64,000 nucleotides of DNA from Amyelois transitella (lineage: Eukaryota; Arthropoda; Insecta; Lepidoptera; Pyralidae), in contig NC_083509.1 in NCBI RefSeq assembly GCF_032362555.1, positions 3,309,001 through 3,373,000 of the forward strand. Direction: 5' to 3'. Made by a program: the position numbers and the translations under genes. Below are positions 23,563 through 57,872 of this stretch, piece after piece (within the stretch, counting starts at the first letter, position 1; every line of letters starts with the position of its first letter). The notes under the pieces were generated by a model. That model was given only the letters and a program-made list of their open reading frames with translations, was not told the DNA's origin and made no database searches.

Positions 23563-26220
23563 TCAGCAGTTTACGTATTTTTGTAACTCCTGAAGCCTTC
23601 GGCTTTCTAATTGTCTTAAAAACTGTTGTTTTCTGTCACTAGTAGTGTTTTCCCCTGCCTTTGGTAAAGCAGCATGCCTTTGAAAGTGTATAATGGCAGC
23701 TAACAAGTTCCATATTGTGAAATCAGGCCACAAAACATCAGTGAAATAAACAACTGAATTGGATACCTGAAAAAAAATTCTAGTGGGTAAAAAAAAAACA
23801 GAAACCAAATTTAAAAGTTTGCAAAGAGCAAATACATACATAAAATCACGCCTCTTTCTTGGAGGGGTAGGCAGAGATTTTTTAGATCTTTTTATTTGTT
23901 ACAACCCAAGCATTCTTTTTTCGCTTCATACACATTCATGACTGTCTTCATGCAAGCTCGTTTGTTTCGGGTACTCTTGACTTGACCTTTTGCCAGAACG
24001 CCGCCGATATTTTTTTGTAAACTAAATTTATTCAAAATTATACTCAATTCTATCATTGAGCCAAATAGCTGAACATGGCCTACCACCAGTCTTTTCAAGA
24101 CTGCTGGCTCTATCTGCCTCACACGGGACAGACCTCATTATATGTATGTATGTAATTACAGTCAAACCATTAAGGTGCCTGCCATAATAAACCACTGAGC
24201 TGCACCTCAAGAAGTATTCCTGAACAGTATTTATTTATTTTCTTGACACACCAACAGTATAAACATGTCACCAGTATAACCACCAAAGATTAAAATACAA
24301 GTTTTTAGCTTTAGTTAGTAGTTGTTAATTCAAACTAAAAGATATAAATAAGAAGAAAAATTTCATAACTCAATATCTCATATACTACCTCTATTCCAGC
24401 CTAAAACACTTGTTTTATCTTCATGGAAATATACTTCTTTGATATGAATGGCTCAAATTAAAAAGTCCTACTAACCTGCCATAGCATGAAATCGGACAGT
24501 CTCACTTCTCCGGAAGTTCTGACTAGTAAATCTGGCTCACTGAGTTCTAGCGTCTGTGAAACTAGTTCTTCATCAATATCTTCTGGGGCCAGTTCGTTAT
24601 TTCTAACACCATCAACTATGTGTGATGCCGCCCGACTGATTTCATCTCTACCTGTATGTTTAAAAAAAAAGAGCACATCCATCACATTTAGAGCTTTACT
24701 TTAAAAATTTTGGCTTTTAGGCACTTGTGAGGCTTGCCGTGTGGTTCCCGGCACCAATACAAAAAGAATACGACCACTCCATCTCTTTGTAATGGATGTC
24801 GTAAAAGACGACTAAGGGATAGGCTTACAAACTTGGGATTCTTAGTTAGGCGATGGGCTAGCAACCTGTCACTATTTGAATTTCAATTCCATCATTAAGC
24901 AAAATAGCTGAACGTGGCCATTCAGTCTTTTCAAGCCTGTTGGCTCTGTCTACCCCGCAAGGGATATAGACGTGACCATATGTATGTATGTATGTGAGGC
25001 TTGCACATGTTACCAAAAAAATTCTTCCACATGCAATCTGGAGAAGCAAAGGAAATCTGATAGGATAAATAGTGGTTTTCAGTCTTCCAAAGTCTTTATG
25101 GTAACATTAATCAAAGAGTGGGCCTAATGAGAAATGGTTTGGTATTCTACACAGTAATAACACCTTACCAGTATATGCATAAGCTATATTCAACCTAAGC
25201 TTATTGTTGTCTTTGGTCGCTAACATGGCTTCGGAGACAAGGCTTCTCAAATCATCAGGCAGTAAAGACAGCCTACCAGCAACATGGACTCTCATTCCCC
25301 ATTCATTCAATTGGTCCCTGCAAATAAAAAAATAATAATTTGAACTGGTAATTTTGTTAAGGCATGTGAGTAGACTATCCTGTATTTTTACATACTACAC
25401 ACACAAAAAATAAAATTTGGAAAATTTCAGTGTCCTAACAAAGAAACATACTTTCGCATTTATAATTATGCCAAAACAAAGTATTCCTTATTTTAAGTCA
25501 CAAAGTTGTTACAGTAGAAAAATATTGAGAAAGCAGTACTTCAATAAAAAATGTGCAAAAGGCAAGCAACATACATTTCGTCCAAGAGTCTCTTGAATTT
25601 ATCCCGGGCTAAATTCATAAGAGCAGAAACTTCTTCTTCCTTTCTCTTGAAGTTCTCTATACTGAATGCGTAAACTGTCACCTCTGGAACTCCAATGTCT
25701 AGACACCACTGGAAGTAAATATGGAATTTGATGATACTTTTATCAAGTTATGTTTAAGTCAGCCATACAGCCATTATGAGTATATTTTCCAGTGTTCACA
25801 CTGAACAACACTGAACTTTGAACAATTTTAAAGATTTATTTCATCACACAGAAGGCTTTTGGTATATTTTGCAATTACATAGTGATACTTAAAAGTAAGT
25901 TATAGTTTATTATTTATTCAAGACTGTTGGCTCTGTTTACCTCGCAAGGGATATGGACGTGATATAACATCAAATCGCAGAATTGTATGTACTGCAAGTC
26001 GTTGGTAATAAAGCATGTATATAAAACTAACCTTTAAAGTCTCTGAAAGCTTATCAAATCCTTTGTAATGTCCCTCGGAACTATTTACGCTATGTTTCTT
26101 TGCATAGCGACGGTTACCGTCCATTATAAATGCTATATGTTGTGGTATACGACCTGTATTAACCACTTTTATGCAAAGGAGCTGGAAGAAAGAAACACAA
26201 TTCTCCTTCACCCACGACAT
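23563..26220 (-). CDS. DHDDS: Dehydrodolichyl diphosphate synthase catalytic subunit (cis-prenyltransferase)
   Basis: DHDDS extends farnesyl diphosphate with isopentenyl diphosphate in the cis configuration to make dehydrodolichyl diphosphate at the ER, for dolichol and N-glycosylation; it works with NUS1/NgBR. Exons: 26032-26220, 25575-25708, 25169-25317, 24476-24651, 23563-23766; phases match, 283 aa (human 333). Motifs: [14 protein letters not shown] with the catalytic Asp at residue 34, [20 protein letters not shown], and [19 protein letters not shown] at about 198-216 (diphosphate-binding Arg202, Arg208, Ser210), then [11 protein letters not shown]. The C-terminal tail is shorter than in human. 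Its 3' end faces FAM50 with under 300 bp between stops, and TTTATT at 23361-23366 supplies a minus-strand poly(A) signal, so the UTRs may overlap. The start is shared head-to-head with RTRAF. Confidence 0.96.
23836..24160 (+). repeat. Two retroposon fragments in the first DHDDS intron from the 3' end
   Basis: At 23836-24000 is a copy of a second SINE-like family ('aaaatcacgcctctttc', 'ggaggggtaggcagag', 'actcttgacttgacctttt'). At 24046-24160 is the 3' half of the TATG-tailed family, ending in 'tatatgtatgtatgta'. They are adjacent, one possibly inserted beside the other. Confidence 0.7.
24726..25003 (+). repeat. SINE-like retroposon (TATG-tailed family), near-complete, with 11-bp target duplication
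   Basis: The copy starts at about 24736 (gCCGTGTGGTTCCCGGCAC) and ends in (TATG)n near 24992. An 11-bp direct repeat TGTGAGGCTTG flanks it at 24726-24736 and 24993-25003. The duplication and simple tail are what target-primed retroposition leaves. I recognise the family as very common in Lepidoptera, but I cannot see a clear tRNA or 5S head. It is intronic in DHDDS, on the opposite strand to the gene. Confidence 0.85.
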
Positions 26221-37182: not shown

Positions 37183-38035
37183 TTTGTTACTGTTTAAATA
37201 TTTAAATATGTACTTATAAATTATTAATCGTAGACGGTTTTTTTTTTATTTAAAAAGGGTTCGAATCTATCCCGGCCGTATACCAATGACTATTTCGAAG
37301 TTATGAACATTAGTTTGAATACTAACTGATGCTCTTACCGCGAGGGAAACATCGTGAGGAAACCTGTACAATAAGGCAACTGGCTGGAGGGTAGCAATTA
37401 GCTTTTGCACGCGACATCTTACGCGTGGTTTTTTTTCGCAATATAATCTAAAACTGGATATGCTATGTTCTTCATTAGGGTCAACTCTATCACTGTACCA
37501 AATTACGTGACACCTATATCAAGAAGATTAATTTAGTAGATAATCCATGAACGAACATGTAACAAATAAAATCACTGACGCCCTTTGACACGTTTAACGC
37601 AAATCCTACCTAAACAGTCTTCTTTTTTTCTTGGATGAAAGGTACCTATAAGATACATCAGTTCTTCTCATCACTCCTAGAGGCATAGGCGTGTTTTGGA
37701 TAATTCCCGAAATAATTTAGGCCAGCGAATTCGTACGTACAATGGCCGGTATTTTCGCTTCCGTGGGAATTTCGGGAAAAAGAAACAAACATGCCAAAAT
37801 AAAATATTTTAAATAAATTGTATTTCCCGCGGTTTTGTTCGGCCGGAACATTGTCATCCATAGACAGTCCCGCGGGCACATGCATTTCTTTTTTAGGGCC
37901 GAGGAGAAGTTTTATCACAATATTTTTTATCTATAAAAAGTCTTCTTTTAAAAATCACCTGTAAAAATTAAAATTTTTTTCATTGGAGGTACATATCCAT
38001 ACAGAAATAAAAAGATTCAAAAATAGATCTTCTCT
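37183..38035. other. Intergenic region with SINE tail
   Basis: After AGA comes a SINE 3' body at about 37254-37410 ('ggttcgaatctatcccgg', 'catcgtgaggaaacctgta', 'aaggcaactggctgg'). I recognise it as the tail of a lepidopteran tRNA-derived SINE; a related copy is at 50600-50790. The rest shows no gene. Confidence 0.55.
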
Positions 38036-38578
38036 TTATTAATAATAGTGAGCATCCACGTTCGCCATATATGTTCATTTCATACGTGGCACATCCCTAT
38101 GACAGAATCGCCAACAAAAGAAACATTTTAATCGACATTTTTGTTGTAATTCTTTGTCATTGTAATCTTTTACTTCATTCCATATTTCACTTCATTCATT
38201 CGCCTAATATTCGGTTCAGCTTCGGTCATTTTGTGTTTGACTTTCGTCGTCGCAACTGTTCAACGTGAGTAATTTGATAATTTTTACTTAACGTAATAAT
38301 CCATTAACGTTTAAGCAAAGAAAAAAATACAAATTAAATCTATTGCTCTAAATTTTTTAAAATAATTTTTATAATCCATCTTTACTTCAAGTTTGTTGGA
38401 GTTTCTCCCGTTTGGTAACCTATGTCCACGTGGTACTATTTCAATTCAAATGATGAGACTTAATTAAATTCATTTGTGGTATCCTCCATAGTATGTATGT
38501 ATACAATGATGGCCTTAATGCGTCTGATATTTAATTGTTTAGTTCTACATTAAATATGTAAGTTGCGTTAACTAATAT

Positions 38579-38645
38579 GTTTCCCTCTTGAAATATTTAT
38601 GTTTCCCTCTTGAAATATTTATGTTTCCCTCTTGAAATATTTTCA
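38579..38645 (+). repeat. 22-bp repeat, three copies, at the pseudogene acceptor
   Basis: 'atgtttccctcttgaaatat' with a short tail is repeated three times directly upstream of the TTTTCAG acceptor. The intact RpS2 gene has a single version at 44048-44073. The repeat lengthens the pyrimidine-containing region before the acceptor. Confidence 0.9.
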
Positions 38646-39029
38646 GAATGGCAGACGGTGCTTCAACCATTGCTGTTTTTGCGGTGGTTATGGTTCGTCT
38701 GGGGGCGATACAGGCCATGGTGCCTCAACGTGGCCGTGGACGCGGTCATGAACGAGGCCGTGGTCGCGGGAAGGCAGATCAGAAAGATTGTGATCTAGAT
38801 ATCTGACAAAACCGCCCGGCTCTAAAAGTCAAAAACGATAAACTCGAGAGCATTAACTTGTTTTCTCTGCCCGTCAAAGAGTTTGAATGACGAGGTTTTG
38901 AAGTTCGGGCCTGTACAGAAATAGACGCCTTTGTAGCTATTGGTGACAACAATGGTCACATTGGATTCAGTTACAGTGCAGAAAATAAGTTTTTTCTATC
39001 CGTGGAGCTATTATTCCGGCGGCTAAACC

Positions 39030-40852
39030 GTCCGTATTGCGTATGCGCAGATGCTACCAAGTAACAAGATTGGCAAGCCCCATACAGTACCTGCAAGGTG
39101 AGATTACTGATTTTATTTATGTTTTATTTCTAGCCTACCTAATTCATGATGAAAACTGATAACATTTCATTTGTGGTATCTTGAGGTAAATCCAGTGATA
39201 CTCTTAACACGTCTGATTTTACAAACCTTACATATTCATAAATATTAGGAGGCCCAATGTTCATTAATTACTTTTCGAATTTCAGGTTACTGGCAAGTGC
39301 GGTTCTGTCACCGTGATGCTTAATCATGCACGAGTCCGTATTGCGTATGCGCAGATGCTACCAAGTAACAAGATTGGCAAGCCCCATACAGTACCTGCAA
39401 GGTGAGATACTGATTTTATTTATGTTTTATTTCTAGCCTACCTAATTCATGATGAAAACTGATAACATTTCATTTGTGGTATCTTGAGGTAAATCCAGTG
39501 ATACTCTTAACACGTCTGATTTTACAAACCTTACATATTCATAAATATTAGGAGGCCCAATGTTCATTAATTACTTTTCGAATTTCAGGTTACTGGCAAG
39601 TGCGGTTCTGTCACCGTGATGCTTAATCATGCACGAGTCCGTATTGCGTATGCGCAGATGCTACCAAGTAACAAGATTGGCAAGCCCCATACAGTACCTG
39701 CAAGGTGAGATTACTGATTTTATTTATGTTTTATTTCTAGCCTACCTAATTCATGATGAAAACTGATAACATTTCATTTGTGGTATCTTGAGGTAAATCC
39801 AGTGATACTCTTAACACGTCTGATTTTACAAACCTTACATATTCATAAATATTAGGAGGCCCAATGTTCATTAATTACTTTTCGAATTTCAGGTTACTGG
39901 CAAGTGCGGTTCTGTCACCGTGATGCTTAATCAGGCACAAGTCCGTATTGCGTATGCGCAGATGCTACCAAGTAACAAGATTGGCAAGCCCCATACAGTA
40001 CCTGCAAGGTGAGATTACTGATTTTATTTATGTTTTATTTCTAGCCTACCTAATTCATGATGAAAACTGATAACATTTCATTTGTGGTATCTTGAGGTAA
40101 ATCCAGTGATACTCTTAACACGTCTGATTTTACAAACCTTACATATTCATAAATATTAGGAGGCCCAATGTTCATTAATTACTTTTCGAATTTCAGGTTA
40201 CTGGCAAGTGCGGTTCTGTCACCGTGATGCTTAATCATGCACGAGTCCGTATTGCGTATGCGCAGATGCTACCAAGTAACAAGATTGGCAAGCCCCATAC
40301 AGTACCTGCAAGGTGAGATACTGATTTTATTTATGTTTTATTTCTAGCCTACCTAATTCATGATGAAAACTGATAACATTTCATTTGTGGTATCTTGAGG
40401 TAAATCCAGTGATACTCTTAACACGTCTGATTTTACAAACCTTACATATTCATAAATATTAGGAGGCCCAATGTTCATTAATTACTTTTCGAATTTCAGG
40501 TTACTGGCAAGTGCGGTTCTGTCACCGTGATGCTTAATCATGCACGAGTCCGTATTGTGTATGCGCAGATGCTACCAAGTAACAAGATTGGCAAGCCCCA
40601 TACAGTACCTGCAAGGTGAGATACTGATTTTATTTATGTTTTATTTCTAGCCTTACCTAATTCATGATGAAAACTGATAACATTTCATTTGTGGTATCTT
40701 GAGGTAAATCCAGTGATACTCTTTACACGTCTGATTTTACAAACCTTACATATTCATAAATATTAGGAGGCCCAATTTTCATTAATTACTTTTCGAATTT
40801 CAGGTTACTGCAAGTGCGGTTCTGTCACCGTGATGCTTAATCATGCATGATT
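39030..40852 (+). repeat. Six tandem copies of a 304-bp unit: exon edge, intron, exon edge
   Basis: Units begin with GTCCGTATTG at 39030, 39334, 39637, 39941, 40245 and 40548, a period of 303-304 bp. Each unit has the last about 68 nt of RpS2 exon 2, a GT donor, an intron of about 188 bp, the TTTCAG acceptor and the first about 48 nt of exon 3. The head-to-tail joints fuse exon 3 start to exon 2 end, making five internal 116-nt mini-exons (for example 39286-39401) with splice sites on both sides. Copies are nearly identical (single-base differences, such as one T missing in 'gagattactg'), so amplification or homogenisation was recent compared with the decay of the pseudogene. Confidence 0.95.
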
Positions 40853-41372
40853 CTACATGATTAGCAGCATTAGCTAGCAGATAGCTAGTGTCCAGAATTG
40901 CTACACATCTACCCGTGGTTCCACTGGCATGCTCGGCAACTCCGCCAATGCTATTGCCAAGATGTGCCTGCCTAACTGCGGACCTGTGGCTTGATATCCC
41001 TTTGACATAGAGTAGGGGGACTTACTCTGAGTTCAAGGTTTAAGTCTTTCTGAATAACTGAAATAAAACAATTCTATTTAGTTTTTGTTTTTCTTTTTTC
41101 GTTTCTATTCATACCATGGTCTCAATTTAATAAATTAAGCGAAGGTAAATCTACCTAAAAAAAAAGATTCAAGCTGACAATAACCTGGTAAGTTTCTAAG
41201 AAGTTTTATCATTTGTGTTACATATAAATTTCATTGTTTTCGAGTCCCATTACTTTTTCACCCTAGCGTTAATTCCGATGTTACCCAAACCTTAGAAAAA
41301 GTCAGCATTTTTTTACATATAAGTCAGCGTTTTTTCACATAAAGCGACTCCAATCTGAATAAAGAAAAGCAT

Positions 41373-42228: not shown

Positions 42229-42500
42229 GTAACATACATACATACATATGGTTACGTCTATACCCCTTGCGGGGTAGACAGAGCCAACAGTTTTAAAAAG
42301 ACTGAATGGCTACGTTCAGCTATTGGCTTAATGATAGAATTGAGATTCAAATAGTTACAGGTTGCTAGCCCATCGCCTAAAAGAATCCCAAGTTTGTAAG
42401 CCTATCCCTTAGTCGCCTTTTACGACATCCATTGGAAAGAGATGGAGTGGTCCTATTATTTTTGTATTACCTAGATCCGGGAATCACACGGCCTATATTT
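42229..42500 (-). repeat. SINE-like retroposon (TATG-tailed family), near full length
   Basis: A reverse copy starting with (CATA)n at 42232, then 'ccccttgcggggtagacag', 'aggttgctagcccatcgcc', 'ttttacgacatccattgga' and the end 'gggaatcacacggc'. It sits about 40 bp beyond the TTAA element. Confidence 0.88.
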
Positions 42501-42964
42501 AATATATTTTTTTTATAATTTGGTTGAATATTTTGATCACTGCACAAATTAAGCATAAAAACTTAGCAATATTCTATGTATGTAATGTTATGTTTCAATA
42601 TTTTCTTATTTTTGTATTATATTTATATGCGTTAGTATTTTCAAGATATAAAAATACTGCATGTCTGAAGAGGCAAACTGTTGATACTGTTGACCATCTA
42701 CATGTCTACACAGTTATGCAATAAATATATTGAGTAGATCGTAAATCGATTATGATTAAAAAAGAACTCAATTTTTTTAAATCATAATCGATCTACGTTC
42801 GTCATATGTTCATTTCATACATGGCACATCCCTATGACAGAATAGCCAATAAAAGAAACATAATGAACGAGATTTTTGTTGTAACTTTTTGTAATTGTAA
42901 TCATTCACCACATCATTCCACACCTCACTTCATTCATTCACTTAATTCGGTTCGGCCTCGTTCG

Positions 42965-43687
42965 TAGAGGTGTAAAAGTAACGAGAAAAAGCAAACCCGT
43001 ATGTATTCGTTACTTTTAAAATGAGTACTCGTTACTATCGTATCGTTACGTTACTCGTTACTTTTGATACCTCAGTATAACCCAACAAAACGAATCGATT
43101 CGTATTTTGTATAGTTTGATACGGGTGTCGAACTGCAAATGAAGTATTGAGTAAATAGTATTGACAGAATCTCTAAATTATAATGAAAAAGCAACACTGT
43201 CAAACTTATTTAATGACAAAAACATTTCGAGAACAAAAATCTTTTATTTTTAAACTGAAATTAGACATATTTAACAAAAACATATTCTAAACAACAGAAT
43301 CATTTGTTCTTAAACTGAATTTAAACATATTAAATAAAACCATATTTTAAACAACAGAATCTTTTGTTCTTGAACTAAAATTTGACGTATTAAATAAAAA
43401 CATAACGTTAAACAAATCAAAAACTATTTTTTAAGCTTCATCCCTTATTATAATATCGTTCCCTTTCATTAACAGTCATTGTTCTTTTGTATTTTGTTAT
43501 TGTAACGTACGGTTTTGAATAAACGTGCGTAATGTGCGCATGCGTGAAATGAACCCATTATACAATAAATGCGAGTAACGAAATCGTGCGATTAACGAAA
43601 TACATTCGAGAGTAACGTTTCGTTACTCGGTACCAGAGCGCATACCCGTTACTCAGTACCGAATACATACAGTTTGTTACAGCTCTA
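42965..43687. mobile_element. Non-autonomous hAT-type element in the RpS2 upstream region
   Basis: A 723-bp insertion with terminal inverted repeats TAGAGGTGTAA / TTACAGCTCTA (one mismatch), flanked by an 8-bp target duplication CTCGTTCG at 42957-42964 and 43688-43695. Eight-base duplications and TAGAG..-type ends fit hAT. Many sub-terminal 'cgttac' and 'gtaacg' motifs lie near both ends, as hAT transposases use. Inside (about 43215-43410) is an A/T-rich unit of about 61 bp repeated three times ('aacaacagaatcttttgtt'). No transposase frame remains. The duplicated RpS2 segment lacks the insertion. Confidence 0.9.
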
Positions 43688-44074
43688 CTCGTTCGGCCAT
43701 TTTGTGTTTGACTTTCGTCGTTGCCACTGTTCAACGTAAGTAGTTTGATAATTTTTACTTGAAGTAATAATTCATTTATTTAAAAGCAAAGAAAAAAATA
43801 CAAATTAAATCTATTGCTTCTAATTTTTTGAATAATCATTATGAACTTGTCTTTACATCAAGTTTCTTGGAGTTTCTCCCGTTTGGTAACCTATGTCCAC
43901 GTGGTTCTATTTCAATTTAAATGATGAGACTTAATTAAATTCATTTGTGGTATCCTCCATAGTATGTATACAATGATGGCCTTAATGCGTCTGATATTTA
44001 TGTAATTGATTAGTTCTATAAATAAATATTTTAGCTGTGTAACTTACATGTTTCCCTCTTAACATATTTTCAGA
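43688..44074 (+). promoter_or_regulatory. RpS2: RpS2 transcription start region, TOP-like exon 1 and first intron
   Basis: The sequence 'ttgactttcgtcgttgcc' contains a likely 5' TOP start (CTTTC) at about 43712; exon 1 would run to 43735 (TTCAAC) followed by GTAAGT. The first intron reaches the TTTTCAG acceptor at 44067-44073, one base before the ATG. Ribosomal protein mRNAs commonly begin with a TOP tract, and the duplicate copy conserves the same exon 1 (about 38241-38264). Confidence 0.65.
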
Positions 44075-45096
44075 ATGGCGGACGCTGCTCCAGCCGGTGG
44101 ACGTGGTGGTTTTCGCGGTGGTTTTGGTTCTCGTGGGGGCGATAGAGGCCGTGGTGGCCCACGAGGCCGTGGACGCGGTCGTGGACGCGGCCGTGGTCGC
44201 GGGAAAGAAGATCAGAAAGAATGGGTTCCAGTAACTAAACTGGGCCGCCTGGTTCGCGAAGGCAAAATCGACAAACTCGAGAGCATTTACTTGTTTTCTC
44301 TGCCCATCAAAGAGTTTGAGATCATTGATTTCTTCCTTGGGCCATCTTTGAATGATGAGGTTTTGAAGATCATGCCTGTGCAGAAACAGACGCGTGCCGG
44401 TCAGCGTACGCGTTTCAAGGCGTTTGTAGCTATCGGAGACAACAATGGTCACATTGGGCTTGGTGTTAAGTGCAGTAAAGAAGTTGCTACTGCTATCCGT
44501 GGAGCTATTATCCTGGCTAAACTGTCCGTATTGCCTGTGCGCAGAGGCTACTGGGGTAACAAGATTGGCAAACCCCATACTGTACCATGCAAGGTGAGAC
44601 TGATTTTATTTATATGTGTTGTAGTAAACATGTTTTGTACACTTATCTTTTACTTAATTCATGATAAATAATATTTGTTTCTTTCATGATGAAAACTGAT
44701 AACAATTCATTTGTGGTATCCTCTTGAGGTAAATCCAGTGAAACTCTTTAACGCGTCTGATTTTACAAACCCTACAGCTTCATTAATATTAGTAGGCCCA
44801 ATGTTTATTAATTTCTTTTTGAATTTCAGGTCACTGGCAAGTGCGGTTCTGTCACCGTGAGGCTGATTCCTGCACCTCGTGGTACTGGTATTGTGTCTGC
44901 ACCAGTCCCCAAAAAGCTGCTACAGATGGCTGGTGTCCAGGATTGCTACACATCTGCCCGTGGTTCCACTGGCACACTCGGCAACTTTGCCAAGGCTACT
45001 TATGCTGCTATTGCCAAAACGTATGCCTACCTGACTCCGGACTTGTGGCGTGATATCCCTCTGACGAAGTCCCCTTACTCTGAGTTCAAGGTTTAA
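44075..45096 (+). CDS. RpS2: 40S ribosomal protein S2 (uS5)
   Basis: RpS2 (uS5) sits near the mRNA entry channel of the small ribosomal subunit and acts in decoding accuracy. Coding exons 44075-44593 and 44830-45096 join in phase 0 to 261 aa, preceded by a short non-coding exon. The N-terminus is a glycine/arginine-rich tail ([17 protein letters not shown], about residues 8-43), a usual site of arginine methylation. The double-stranded RNA-binding-like S5 domain follows ([38 protein letters not shown]), then the C-terminal part [20 protein letters not shown], ending SPYSEFKV. No defect is seen. AATAAA at 45114-45119 lies about 20 bp after the stop. A decayed duplicate lies 3-4 kb upstream. 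Confidence 0.98.
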
Positions 45097-45229
45097 GTGT
45101 TTTAAGACAACTTAAATAAAACATCTTTGCAAATTATTTTTTGTTTTTTATGTTCCTTTTCATACCATGGTCTCAATCTTATAAATTAAGCCAAGCTCTG
45201 TAGGTAAAAGTTTCAAGCTGACAATAAAC

Positions 45230-46289
45230 CTTGTGAATGTGAAGTGAATTTATGCACTTTTGCATTCAGGCAACGTCACGATTCAAGATGCTCAAATTGT
45301 TAATGCACTATGTACATATAACATTTTATTTTTCAAAATGCCTAAGCACTTTCAATGTACATGATCTCTTTTCCGGTGGGGTAGGCAGAAACTTGATTTG
45401 ATTGAATAAATTAATAGATTACTACAATAATGCCACATTTACTTTATTTTCTCATTCTATTTATAAGCCTACCACCTAGGATGTTTAAGCCCCTACACTT
45501 AGAGATCTACGCAAACTCATGTTTTTTATTAAATAAGGCAGGTACTTAATAAGTACGTACTATAGATACATTGGATATTTTACATGTAAATGAAGGGAAG
45601 AAAAAAGGTCAACGTGAAGTGAACTTTTTTCAGACTGGCTTATTGTATCTATGTATTTCTACGCTATATTATGTAGTCATGTTGCTGTTAAGTGACACAT
45701 ACATCCACACTAATAATTCATATCATACATACATAAATCCCGCCTCTTTCCAGGAAGGGTAGGCATATACTACTGCTTTCCACTTGTCATGTTCCCTGCA
45801 AATATCACTTGCTGAAAAACGAAAAGTGTAATAGGGGCAATAGGTCGCTTGCTTCCGTAAACACGTCGATAATTTTTGTGAGGAAAATAGTCAATGAATT
45901 GCAACAATCAATTAAATTTCACAGTGTATCCTGATATTTTTTATCATTGACACTTTGACTTCTTTAGCTTCATCCACATTCAAACTATGTGTGAGCTCGT
46001 CGGTTTTGGATACTCTTGACCTGACCTTTTGCCTGACTAATAACTAAAGAGTTGTGTTTATAACAAATAAACTCAAAAGTACTCAACAAATTTGGACGAA
46101 ATTTGGCACATAGAATGCTTTATGAGTTACATAGGCAACTTTTTCCCCTGCACAAAAGCTAGCCTACTATTAAAAGTACCTACCTACATTAATTCACTTG
46201 TGCTTGGGGTTGTGCTTCTTTATAATATCCTGTTAGACCCTAGCTTTATAAACAAAAGATCATCAATAGGCTAAAATAAAAACTCAGTA
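45230..46289. other. Intergenic region with retroposon remnants
   Basis: It holds a copy of the second SINE-like family from about 45724 ((CATA)n then 'cgcctctttccaggaaggg') to about 46050 ('actcttgacctgacctttt'), interrupted by about 130 bp of other sequence. No gene is recognised between the convergent RpS2 and RPAC2. Confidence 0.55.
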
Positions 46290-53689: not shown

Positions 53690-53910
53690 TTACACAGATT
53701 GAGTTAGCCTCGAAGTAAGTTCGAGACTTGTGTTACGAGATACTAACTCAACGATACTATATTTTATAATAAATACTTATATAGATAAACATCCAAGACC
53801 CAGGCCAATCAGAAAAAGTTCTTTTCTCATCATGCCCTGGCCGGGATTCGAACCCGGGACCCCCGGTGTCACAGACAAGCGTATTACCGCTGCGCCACAG
53901 AGGCCGTCAA
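53690..53910 (-). repeat. tRNA-derived SINE, well preserved
   Basis: On the minus strand it begins 'ggcctctgtggcgcagcggt', a clear box A region, and has 'gggttcgaatcccggcc' as box B. The body follows ('tatctatataagtatttatt', 'gttagtatctcgtaacac'). It resembles a tRNA only in the head, with no matching acceptor stem, so it is a SINE and not a tRNA gene. Confidence 0.88.
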
Positions 53911-55745: not shown

Positions 55746-57634
55746 TTAATTAAGAGTCTGGAGAAAGACTTGGGTACTTTTCATCCCGATAAAAAATTTA
55801 GTTCTCGTGAGATTAGCGCAAATCCTGTATTTTCCTGTAGGTGGCGCTAAATTCGCGTAAGCAAAACTGCGGGTGAAAACTAGTAATGTTATTAATAAGG
55901 TTTTTAATCACTAACATGTTTATATTAAGTTACCTGCGATAGAATGATTTCTGTTTATCTCATCAGAATGAGCCTTGGGGAAGCTTTTAGAGCCTAATCC
56001 TGTAATGTCAAGGATATGTATATCGTAGATTCTAATGTAGGTGATGTGAGAGCTTTGGGAAATGTAAGGGAATACTCGTTGATTTCGTTTACTTAGTATC
56101 TATATCAAAATATTTGCATACATTTTCATTACAAATTTGATTGTAGGGTAATGTAGTTTAGTTGATACATGGAAAGCAAATTTTAATGTTAAATATGAGT
56201 TTTTGCCACTATATTGGAAACAAAAGTTATAAAGAAATATTTACCGCGATTGACTTATATTTTTCCGCCATTTATTTTTATCAAAGACGAGCTCTTAAAT
56301 AAACAACAAAACGCCTATAAAACTTTTCAATTCATTTAGTAGGAACAAAAGAAAATAAAAGAATAAAAAACAGGACGTATTGGCCATGAATTTCATTGTT
56401 CACTTTATTTAATTTCTTACACTTCAGTGGAGCGTGTATCGGCTGTCGTTTGGAGCGGCCGGGAAATGGCGGCGACTTTGATATTTTTAACAAAATATAC
56501 CTATTTTCCTTATTAAAGATGTTGTGAACCGTGGTATTAAGATAGAAACGTTTATTTTTATTTATTCTCCTACGGGGTAGACAGAGCCTACAGTAAAAAA
56601 AGAAAGTCCATGTTCAGCTGTATTGAGATTTGAATGGTGAATTCACGACGTATTGCTATTTGATAAGTTTTCATTGACAAAAAAAATATTTTCTTCCTAT
56701 TTTTATGTTGCTTACAGTACCTACAATTGATTATAGGTAGAATGCATAGGATACCTGCCGTAACATTGTTGAGTGCCTTCAGACCGAACATAAAGCGACT
56801 TAAGTCTTGTTTTACACAACACGTCTTATTGTCTAGCCGTCTGCTACACGACACGGTATTTACCTTTGAATTGCTCCAAGTTTATGCGCTGGTAAAACTG
56901 GTAATGCGGCTACATGAAACGACAAATTACGCCCTTTTAATACATACATACATTAAAAAAAAGTTGCATTTATTCACTATACCGCTGGGTTTTGTTTTTT
57001 TAAAATTGGGATGCAGGGTTCCTTATTTGTTCCAGGCGTGCACTAAAAGATACGAGTAATTTGCCGACATTTCCGCAGAAACGGAGATTAACGGAATTTA
57101 TCTTTTAACGCGATTGGACCCGCGGGCGTAATCTAGTCTCTTTCATTTACTCGGGTAATATAGCCTACATGAACGTATACAAAAAGCCGTTACGCAAAAC
57201 ATATGCACGAGTTTAAAATATGAAATTTTGTAGCAACTGTGTGAATCCGTAACTAACTTTTGACCTTAATAAAACTCCCGTTAGTCAGGGATAACATTAA
57301 AATATCTCCCCGAATTTCATAACAACTCAAACTTTTGGGATAGGTAGGCTTTATTGTGAAAATTTTGTTCTCGTGCAGTAATAATAAAGTAGTGTTGCGA
57401 CCGGCGTTATAGTTGTCATCTGTTTATAGCTCTTAAGCATTAATTAATATGATCCTGTCATAGAAAATGGAATAATAGACCTCGGCTTCTCTCCAGAGAG
57501 GTGAGGACGCAACCGGGACTAACGCCAGAAGGACGATGATTCCAGAACAACATTGTTCCATTCTCTTTGGAATCTACGCATAAATTATGCCCAATTACTT
57601 CAAATAAAAAATAATAATGAAAATTGACTTTTAC
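55746..57634. other. Gene-poor DNA with small remnants
   Basis: It contains a repeat end near 55850-55880 ('aactgcgggtgaaaactag'), a TATG-family piece at about 56568-56640 ('ctacggggtagacagagcc'), a repeat end near 57115-57140 ('gacccgcgggcgtaatctag') and a fragment at 57475-57545. No gene is recognised. Confidence 0.5.
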
Positions 57635-57872
57635 AATGCTGTGTGGTTTCTGGCAATTTAAAATAGAATCACTGCTTATCTTTCCCATGGATGTCGTAAA
57701 AGGCGACTAAGGGGTAGGCTTATAAACTTGGGATTCTGGCTAGCAACCTGGCACTGTTTGAATCTCAATTCCATCATGAAATCATACAGCTGAATGTGGC
57801 CTTTCAGTCTTTTTTAAACTGTTGGCTTTATCTACCCCGCAAGGGTTATAGACGTGACTATGTATGTATACC
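57635..57872 (+). repeat. SINE-like retroposon (TATG-tailed family)
   Basis: Sense copy: 'gctgtgtggtttctggcaat', 'cccatggatgtcgtaaaagg', 'ctaccccgcaagggttatag' and the tail 'tatgtatgta'. The middle has a small deletion relative to the 24736 copy. Confidence 0.85.

Follow-up and report, generated by a model that had tools for sequence, protein, structure and literature searches.

A candidate noncoding snoRNA host gene with a tandemly repeated intron, bearing a U14-like element, in an RpS2 pseudogene of Amyelois transitella

Introduction

The origin of noncoding snoRNA host genes and of tandem intronic snoRNA arrays is a long-standing question. Large tandem arrays of intronic box C/D snoRNAs have been described for eutherians (SNORD113/114 and SNORD115/116), together with Bsr in the rat, and the same account suggests that understudied genomes might hold more of them (PMC11028025). 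The mammalian arrays occupy introns of a noncoding transcript, and their copies are described as being gained, lost, and homogenised (PMC11028025, PMC8162545, PMC4063771). They are classed as novelties of the eutherian lineage that lie at imprinted loci and contain orphan snoRNAs (PMC11028025). Noncoding snoRNA host genes, among them UHG, gas5, U17HG, U19HG, and U50HG, are reported from mammals and fruit flies, and several intronic copies of U14 can share one host, as in introns 5, 6, and 8 of HSPA8 in chicken (PMC2653536). U14 is given as essential in yeast, where its essential region binds helix 6 of the 18S rRNA (PMC9196750). Among the cytoplasmic ribosomal protein genes of the fly, the introns of 27 are reported to host snoRNAs, and sop/RpS2 is placed at 30E1 (PMC2246290).

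Here we describe a locus of the moth Amyelois transitella, found in a window of 64,000 nucleotides (the whole stretch of DNA that was analysed). As in SNORD115/SNORD116, SNORD113/SNORD114, and rat Bsr, tandem units carry box C/D elements in introns, the elements here being snoRNA-like and predicted. The array differs from the mammalian ones in belonging to an insect, in consisting of six units with a U14-like body, and in lying within a ribosomal protein pseudogene, and it is known from sequence alone. Hosts of the UHG and gas5 type produce a transcript without protein-coding potential and carry snoRNAs in its introns; by sequence the pseudogene is alike, but it can still be recognised as a descendant of a ribosomal protein gene, and its transcription is putative. 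With U14/SNORD14 the elements share a box C, a stretch that can pair with 18S rRNA, and a box D, whereas their Rfam score is weak, the methylation guide near box D has no recognised match, and the host is RpS2. Fly U14 genes have been mapped to 30E, where sop/RpS2 lies. New splice junctions are also known to arise from a copied exon-intron-exon segment, in tandem exon duplication or intron gain by internal gene duplication; in contrast to such cases, the repeated intron described here carries a putative RNA gene, the exons are noncoding, and there are six units. Among the matches listed in the literature, none was a published insect snoRNA array, and none was an RpS2 pseudogene or other ribosomal protein pseudogene serving as a snoRNA host.

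Results

A broken copy of RpS2 lies beside its intact parent

The array is embedded in a broken, intron-bearing copy of RpS2 with a destroyed reading frame, as a first-pass annotation of this DNA had recognised when it placed the repeats in a ribosomal protein pseudogene. BLAST and global alignment match this copy, at about 38014-41217, to 42754-45262 in the same window and the same orientation, and the two genes stand side by side, about 1.5 kb apart. Stops occur in all three frames of the pseudogene coding sequence. The parent protein matches Pfam Ribosomal_S5 (1.7e-28) and Ribosomal_S5_C (4.8e-24), and its best PDB match is 4v6w_AC, 40S ribosomal protein S2. The features of the two genes are as follows.

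38014-41217, plus strand: unprocessed RpS2 duplicate (pseudogene), with upstream region, two ancestral introns, 3′ flank, and broken coding sequence
38265-38646, plus strand: pseudogene intron 1, with donor GTGAGT and acceptor TTTCAG
41062-41067, plus strand: AATAAA hexamer resembling a poly(A) signal, 3′ of the last pseudogene exon (parent equivalent at 45115-45120)
44075-45096, plus strand: coding part of the intact parent RpS2, in exons 44075-44593 and 44830-45096, stop included (261 aa)

Other sequence features surround the intact gene. A 723-bp insert (42965-43687) lies just upstream of the likely first exon of RpS2, is flanked by an 8-bp repeat, CTCGTTCG, at 42957-42964 and 43688-43695, and ends in imperfect terminal inverted repeats (TAGAGGTGTAA / TAGAGCTGTAA). 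It looks like a hAT-type transposon, and the region of the pseudogene that matches the insertion site is uninterrupted. A dispersed repeat at 42232-42492 has diverged copies elsewhere in the window, for example at 24736-24995 and 57609-57869.

Six tandem units each contain a complete intron

Tandem Repeats Finder reports a period of 304 bp with 6.0 copies, 99% matches, and a score of 3564 over 39030-40847, in agreement with the earlier description of six near-identical 304-bp units. The array is real: there are six tandem units in the assembly, each with a donor, an intron, and an acceptor, the number being that of one assembly. By anatomy alone, all six are arranged head to tail and hold an exon piece, an intron, and a snoRNA-like body.

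39030-40853, plus strand: six tandem units, U1 to U6, starting at 39030, 39334, 39637, 39941, 40245, and 40548
39098-39285, 39402-39588, 39705-39892, 40009-40196, 40313-40499, and 40616-40803, plus strand: unit introns
39286-39401, 39589-39704, 39893-40008, 40197-40312, and 40500-40615, plus strand: mini-exons of 116 nt each

The units measure 304, 303, 304, 304, 303, and 306 bp from U1 to U6, the last value depending on the end that we set at 40853. Each has a GTGAGA donor and a TTTCAG acceptor, as had been described, although the length of 188 bp given for all the introns applies to four of them and the other two have 187 nt. The five mini-exons are each 116 nt long and open in the first frame, again as described, and in no other frame. 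The single base reported missing from the exon 2 edge is in fact two: the alignment has 68 nt in the unit against 70 nt in the parent, with two separate single-base gaps. When the mini-exons are joined in series the frame changes at each step and stops appear in all three frames, so that the array cannot be translated into a long protein, and coding use of the mini-exons was discarded on these grounds. They look like a by-product of splicing, a reading that follows from the lack of a sustained frame and from exon pieces that are no better conserved than other sequence. A plain satellite was likewise rejected as the sole explanation, because the unit contains an entire intron, splice sites at both ends included, and lies within a gene copy.

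An alignment of the six units has 0-3 differing columns among U1-U5 and 9-12 for U6, three of which come from the chosen end. The units are thus far more alike than the pseudogene is to its parent (264 differences in 1440 sites, see below), as the first-pass annotation had noted, and its view that the array grew recently agrees with how few these differences are beside the 18% divergence of the two genes. By this comparison, the gene duplication is old and the array is much younger than the pseudogene. U1 and U2 together are identical to U4 and U5 over 607 bp, which suggests that the array grew by multi-unit blocks. U6, at the right-hand edge, is the most divergent unit, a pattern that fits renewal of the inner units by unequal exchange. 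U3 has two private substitutions at its joint, U6 has several private changes, and a single T distinguishes the U1 from the U2 type; judged from these differences, three unit types are clearly distinct and a fourth rests on a one-base indel.

The introns of both genes carry box C/D snoRNA-like bodies

When pseudogene and parent are aligned, each of the two introns has one conspicuous stretch. Each intron of the parent and of the pseudogene, including every intron of the array, contains a short body bounded by recognisable boxes, and these bodies look like U14-type box C/D snoRNA genes.

43921-43994, plus strand: U14-like box C/D element in parent intron 1, with 79 nt between it and the intron end
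44686-44760, plus strand: U14-like box C/D element in parent intron 2, with 69 nt between it and the intron end
38450-38527, plus strand: U14-like box C/D element in pseudogene intron 1, with 0 substitutions relative to the parent body and one 4-nt insertion
39146-39216, plus strand: snoRNA-like body of unit 1, bounded by boxes C and D, with 69 nt between it and the intron end
39449-39519, plus strand: snoRNA-like body of unit 2, identical to unit 1
39753-39823, plus strand: snoRNA-like body of unit 3, identical to unit 1
40057-40127, plus strand: snoRNA-like body of unit 4, identical to unit 1
40360-40430, plus strand: snoRNA-like body of unit 5, identical to unit 1
40664-40734, plus strand: snoRNA-like body of unit 6, with a single substitution relative to unit 1

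All nine bodies begin with ATGATGA (box C), end with CTGA (box D), and span 71-78 nt, although they share ancestry and do not amount to nine independent tests. Those of U1-U5 are identical over 71 nt. The array body differs from that of parent intron 2 by 3 substitutions and is 4 bases shorter, having lost 3 nt beside the stretch that pairs with 18S rRNA and one T before box D. The bodies of the two parent introns have TTCATTTGTGGTATCCTC in common, and the 15-mer TTCATTTGTGGTATC occurs exactly nine times in the window: the parent has two of these copies, pseudogene intron 1 has one, and each of the six units has one. Four further matches to the 15-mer in the window have three mismatches each, and shuffles average 3.4 such matches. 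Local alignment of parent introns 1 and 2 scores 48; the best of 1000 dinucleotide-shuffled pairs scored 40. By this similarity, the two predicted elements of RpS2 are shown to be paralogous.

The distance from the end of box D to the end of the intron is 69 nt in parent intron 2 and in all six units, and this spacing is unchanged although 45 bases have been deleted from the rest of the array intron. Vertebrate intronic C/D snoRNAs favour a distance to the intron end of roughly 69 nt. In pseudogene intron 1, a perfect 22-bp triplication (38576-38642) directly 5′ of the acceptor has lengthened the distance from box D to the intron end to 119 nt. The body of parent intron 1 folds with pairing of the flanking TCAATT and AATTGA, while parent intron 2 and unit 1 have no such clear stem.

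The elements resemble U14

At gathering level, an Rfam scan of the window returned no snoRNA; its sole match was a borderline tRNA family hit on the minus strand (53833-53904, 29.6 bits against a gathering threshold of 29), possibly a tRNA-derived repeat. With matches admitted up to E 10, there were six in the parent region, of which four belong to C/D snoRNA families, and the best E-value of the six is that of SNORD14 on intron 1 (43916-43998, 17.9 bits against a gathering threshold of 64, E 2.4). In the pseudogene region, both of the Rfam matches listed are C/D snoRNA families on the intron-1 body, and SNORD14 matches 38445-38501 (16.7 bits against 64, E 9.9), stopping before box D. The SNORD14 match in intron 1 is in register with box C and the 18S-pairing stretch in both copies, and in the parent with box D as well. 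In intron 2 there was no SNORD14 match up to E 10, and the only C/D match, SNORD73 (E 7.5), does not line up with the boxes.

Between the UCAUUUGUGGU of the bodies and the 18S string ACCGCGAAUGG, an uninterrupted duplex of 11 pairs can form, of which three are G-U. The letters of ACCGCGAAUGG are not those of this species; they occur as a string in at least 12 papers, and we presume that they represent the helix-6 region of 18S rRNA. Counting both strands of the window, nine sites are able to pair in this way with ACCGCGAAUGG, and they are exclusively the nine bodies; with the universal 18S variant ACUGCGAAUGG, one further site in the window can pair. The duplex with ACCGCGAAUGG has an energy of -14.3 kcal/mol in all five bodies tested, and 1.0-1.7% of shuffles are as good, while the duplex with ACUGCGAAUGG is weaker, at -11.4 kcal/mol, with 8-12% of shuffles as good. 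As a looser control we used arbitrary 81-mers from the window, of which 55 of 1598 reach -14.3 with ACCGCGAAUGG and 228 of 1598 reach -11.4 with ACUGCGAAUGG. Searches of other sequence collections for an 18S sequence gave one match, which looks like a chance match and has no Rfam match.

In U14, a guide upstream of box D directs methylation of 18S rRNA (C414 in yeast). Comparison by eye of the sequence next to box D with this target gave no clear match. Because the 18S letters are not those of this species and their assignment to helix 6 is presumed, we label the elements U14-like and not U14; their identity as U14 is putative.

SnoRNA-like intervals diverge less than the surrounding gene

Outside the snoRNA intervals, 264 of 1440 aligned sites differ between pseudogene and parent (18.3%), with one array unit used at a time for these counts (U1 as the main comparison and U6 as a check). 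Divergence amounts to 17.5% in exon 2, 19.0% in exon 3, 16.8% in the rest of intron 1, and 17.1% in the rest of intron 2, with 14.9% in the 5′ flank and 27.9% in the 3′ flank. The interval of snoRNA 1 (43915-44000), which is wider than the body, has 1 substitution in 84 sites together with 2 deleted and 4 inserted bases, and that of snoRNA 2 (44681-44766) has 3 in 80 with unit 1, where 6 bases are also deleted (4 of them in the body), or 5 in 82 with unit 6. The snoRNA intervals differ from the rest by Fisher tests at p = 1.9e-9 with unit 1 and 4.6e-8 with unit 6. Within the introns, snoRNA 1 differs from the rest of intron 1 at p = 4e-5 and snoRNA 2 from the rest of intron 2 at p = 0.0045 (0.015 with unit 6). 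Under a model in which the parent alone is constrained, so that half of the neutral divergence is expected, P = 0.003 for snoRNA 1, 0.057 for snoRNA 2, and 0.0006 for both together.

We also scanned the duplication in 1702 windows of 80 parent positions, a procedure that is independent of the choice of intervals. The lowest window, 43919-43998, has 0 differences and coincides with the intron-1 body, the scan counting parent positions alone and leaving the 4-nt insertion of the pseudogene outside this zero. The window of the intron-2 body has 7 differences, and 44779-44858, just downstream, has 6. The 1253 windows that lie away from the conserved stretches of both introns have a median of 19 differences and a minimum of 7, and 1 of them is as low as the intron-2 body. 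The amplified intron-2 body is less well conserved than the intron-1 body, and constraint on it by itself is no more than suggestive (P = 0.057).

Two other stretches are well kept between parent and pseudogene. About 60 nt upstream of the intron-1 body (43860-43919) are also strongly conserved; either a functional element may extend beyond the body, or a conversion tract may have its edge here. The best-conserved stretch upstream of the genes, 42782-42861, has 7 differences in 80 positions and is possibly a promoter element.

Discussion

We favour the reading, to which we give a probability of about 0.6, that a dead RpS2 copy survives as a noncoding snoRNA host gene and that its second intron was recently amplified. 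Each of the two introns of RpS2 itself would harbour a U14-type box C/D snoRNA gene, the two being paralogous. The duplicate of the gene would have lost the ability to code for protein while retaining its upstream region and splice sites, the signal resembling a poly(A) signal, and the snoRNA bodies, and because these have been kept, the pseudogene most likely persists as a host gene. The pseudogene combines the absence of a sustained reading frame with snoRNA-like elements in its introns, as is expected of such a host. Later, a 304-bp segment comprising the end of exon 2, the snoRNA-bearing intron 2, and the beginning of exon 3 would have been duplicated in tandem to give six units. Since every unit holds a donor, a snoRNA-like body, and an acceptor, the number of excisable introns rises by one with each copy, and that of U14-like snoRNAs could rise likewise.

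In this process, the pseudogene could be transcribed from the retained upstream region, and splicing would remove intron 1 and the six copies of intron 2. The debranched introns could then be trimmed to the C/D core, releasing up to seven snoRNAs per transcript without any RpS2 being made, and an effect on U14 dosage might follow. Upstream similarity, splice sites, and AATAAA are seen at the locus; the steps beyond them are modelled on how intronic snoRNAs are generally made. More tentatively, at a little under even odds, the RpS2 duplicate may have become a dedicated noncoding factory for U14-type snoRNA, in which a module of splice sites and snoRNA-bearing intron multiplies by tandem duplication.

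The main rival to the host-gene reading combines gene conversion with neutral repeat growth. Here the pseudogene would be dead and untranscribed, its intron-1 body would look young through conversion by the parent or by chance, and the array would be an ordinary recent tandem duplication that happened to span a snoRNA-bearing intron. We consider this less likely than the host-gene reading. A gene-conversion tract is possible because the conserved part of intron 1 extends about 60 nt upstream of the body. With one copy constrained, the conservation of the intron-2 body exceeds expectation only weakly (P = 0.057), the body has two indels, and the neighbouring window 44779-44858 is as well kept. 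The identical blocks U1+U2 and U4+U5 fit unequal exchange without selection, and the pseudogene contains another short tandem triplication, that in intron 1. Against neutral growth, the least diverged window of the whole duplication coincides with the C/D body of intron 1, and among the 1253 windows away from the two conserved intron stretches a single one is as low as the intron-2 body.

It is improbable that the unit number is an artefact in which the assembler expanded fewer units. The units are nearly identical, U1+U2 equals U4+U5 exactly over 607 bp, and the U1 and U2 types are separated by a single T, all of which speaks for such an expansion. However, the private substitutions at the joint of U3 and the private changes of U6 give at least three unit types, or four with the one-base indel, and because of these private changes at least three separate units are needed.

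The earlier view, in which the array deserves notice for its splicing units themselves and the mini-exons are used, is very improbable: although the junctions are intact in six of six units and the mini-exons are open in one frame, 116-nt exons shift the frame at every step and all frames contain stops, and what stands out for conservation is the snoRNA body, with the exons diverging by 17.5% and 19.0%. Its statement that the units carry splicing machinery holds for the junctions, while the U14-like box C/D element in each intron had been overlooked.

At this locus parent and offspring are neighbours: the coding exons have decayed, the intron-1 body is free of substitutions, and the module of intron 2 has multiplied very recently. 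This makes it possible to test directly how a host gene is born and whether selection acts on the number of copies of a U14-like element. If the reading is correct, the locus would be a young, non-mammalian counterpart of the SNORD115/116-type arrays, whose sequence still records how a coding gene gave rise to a snoRNA host gene.
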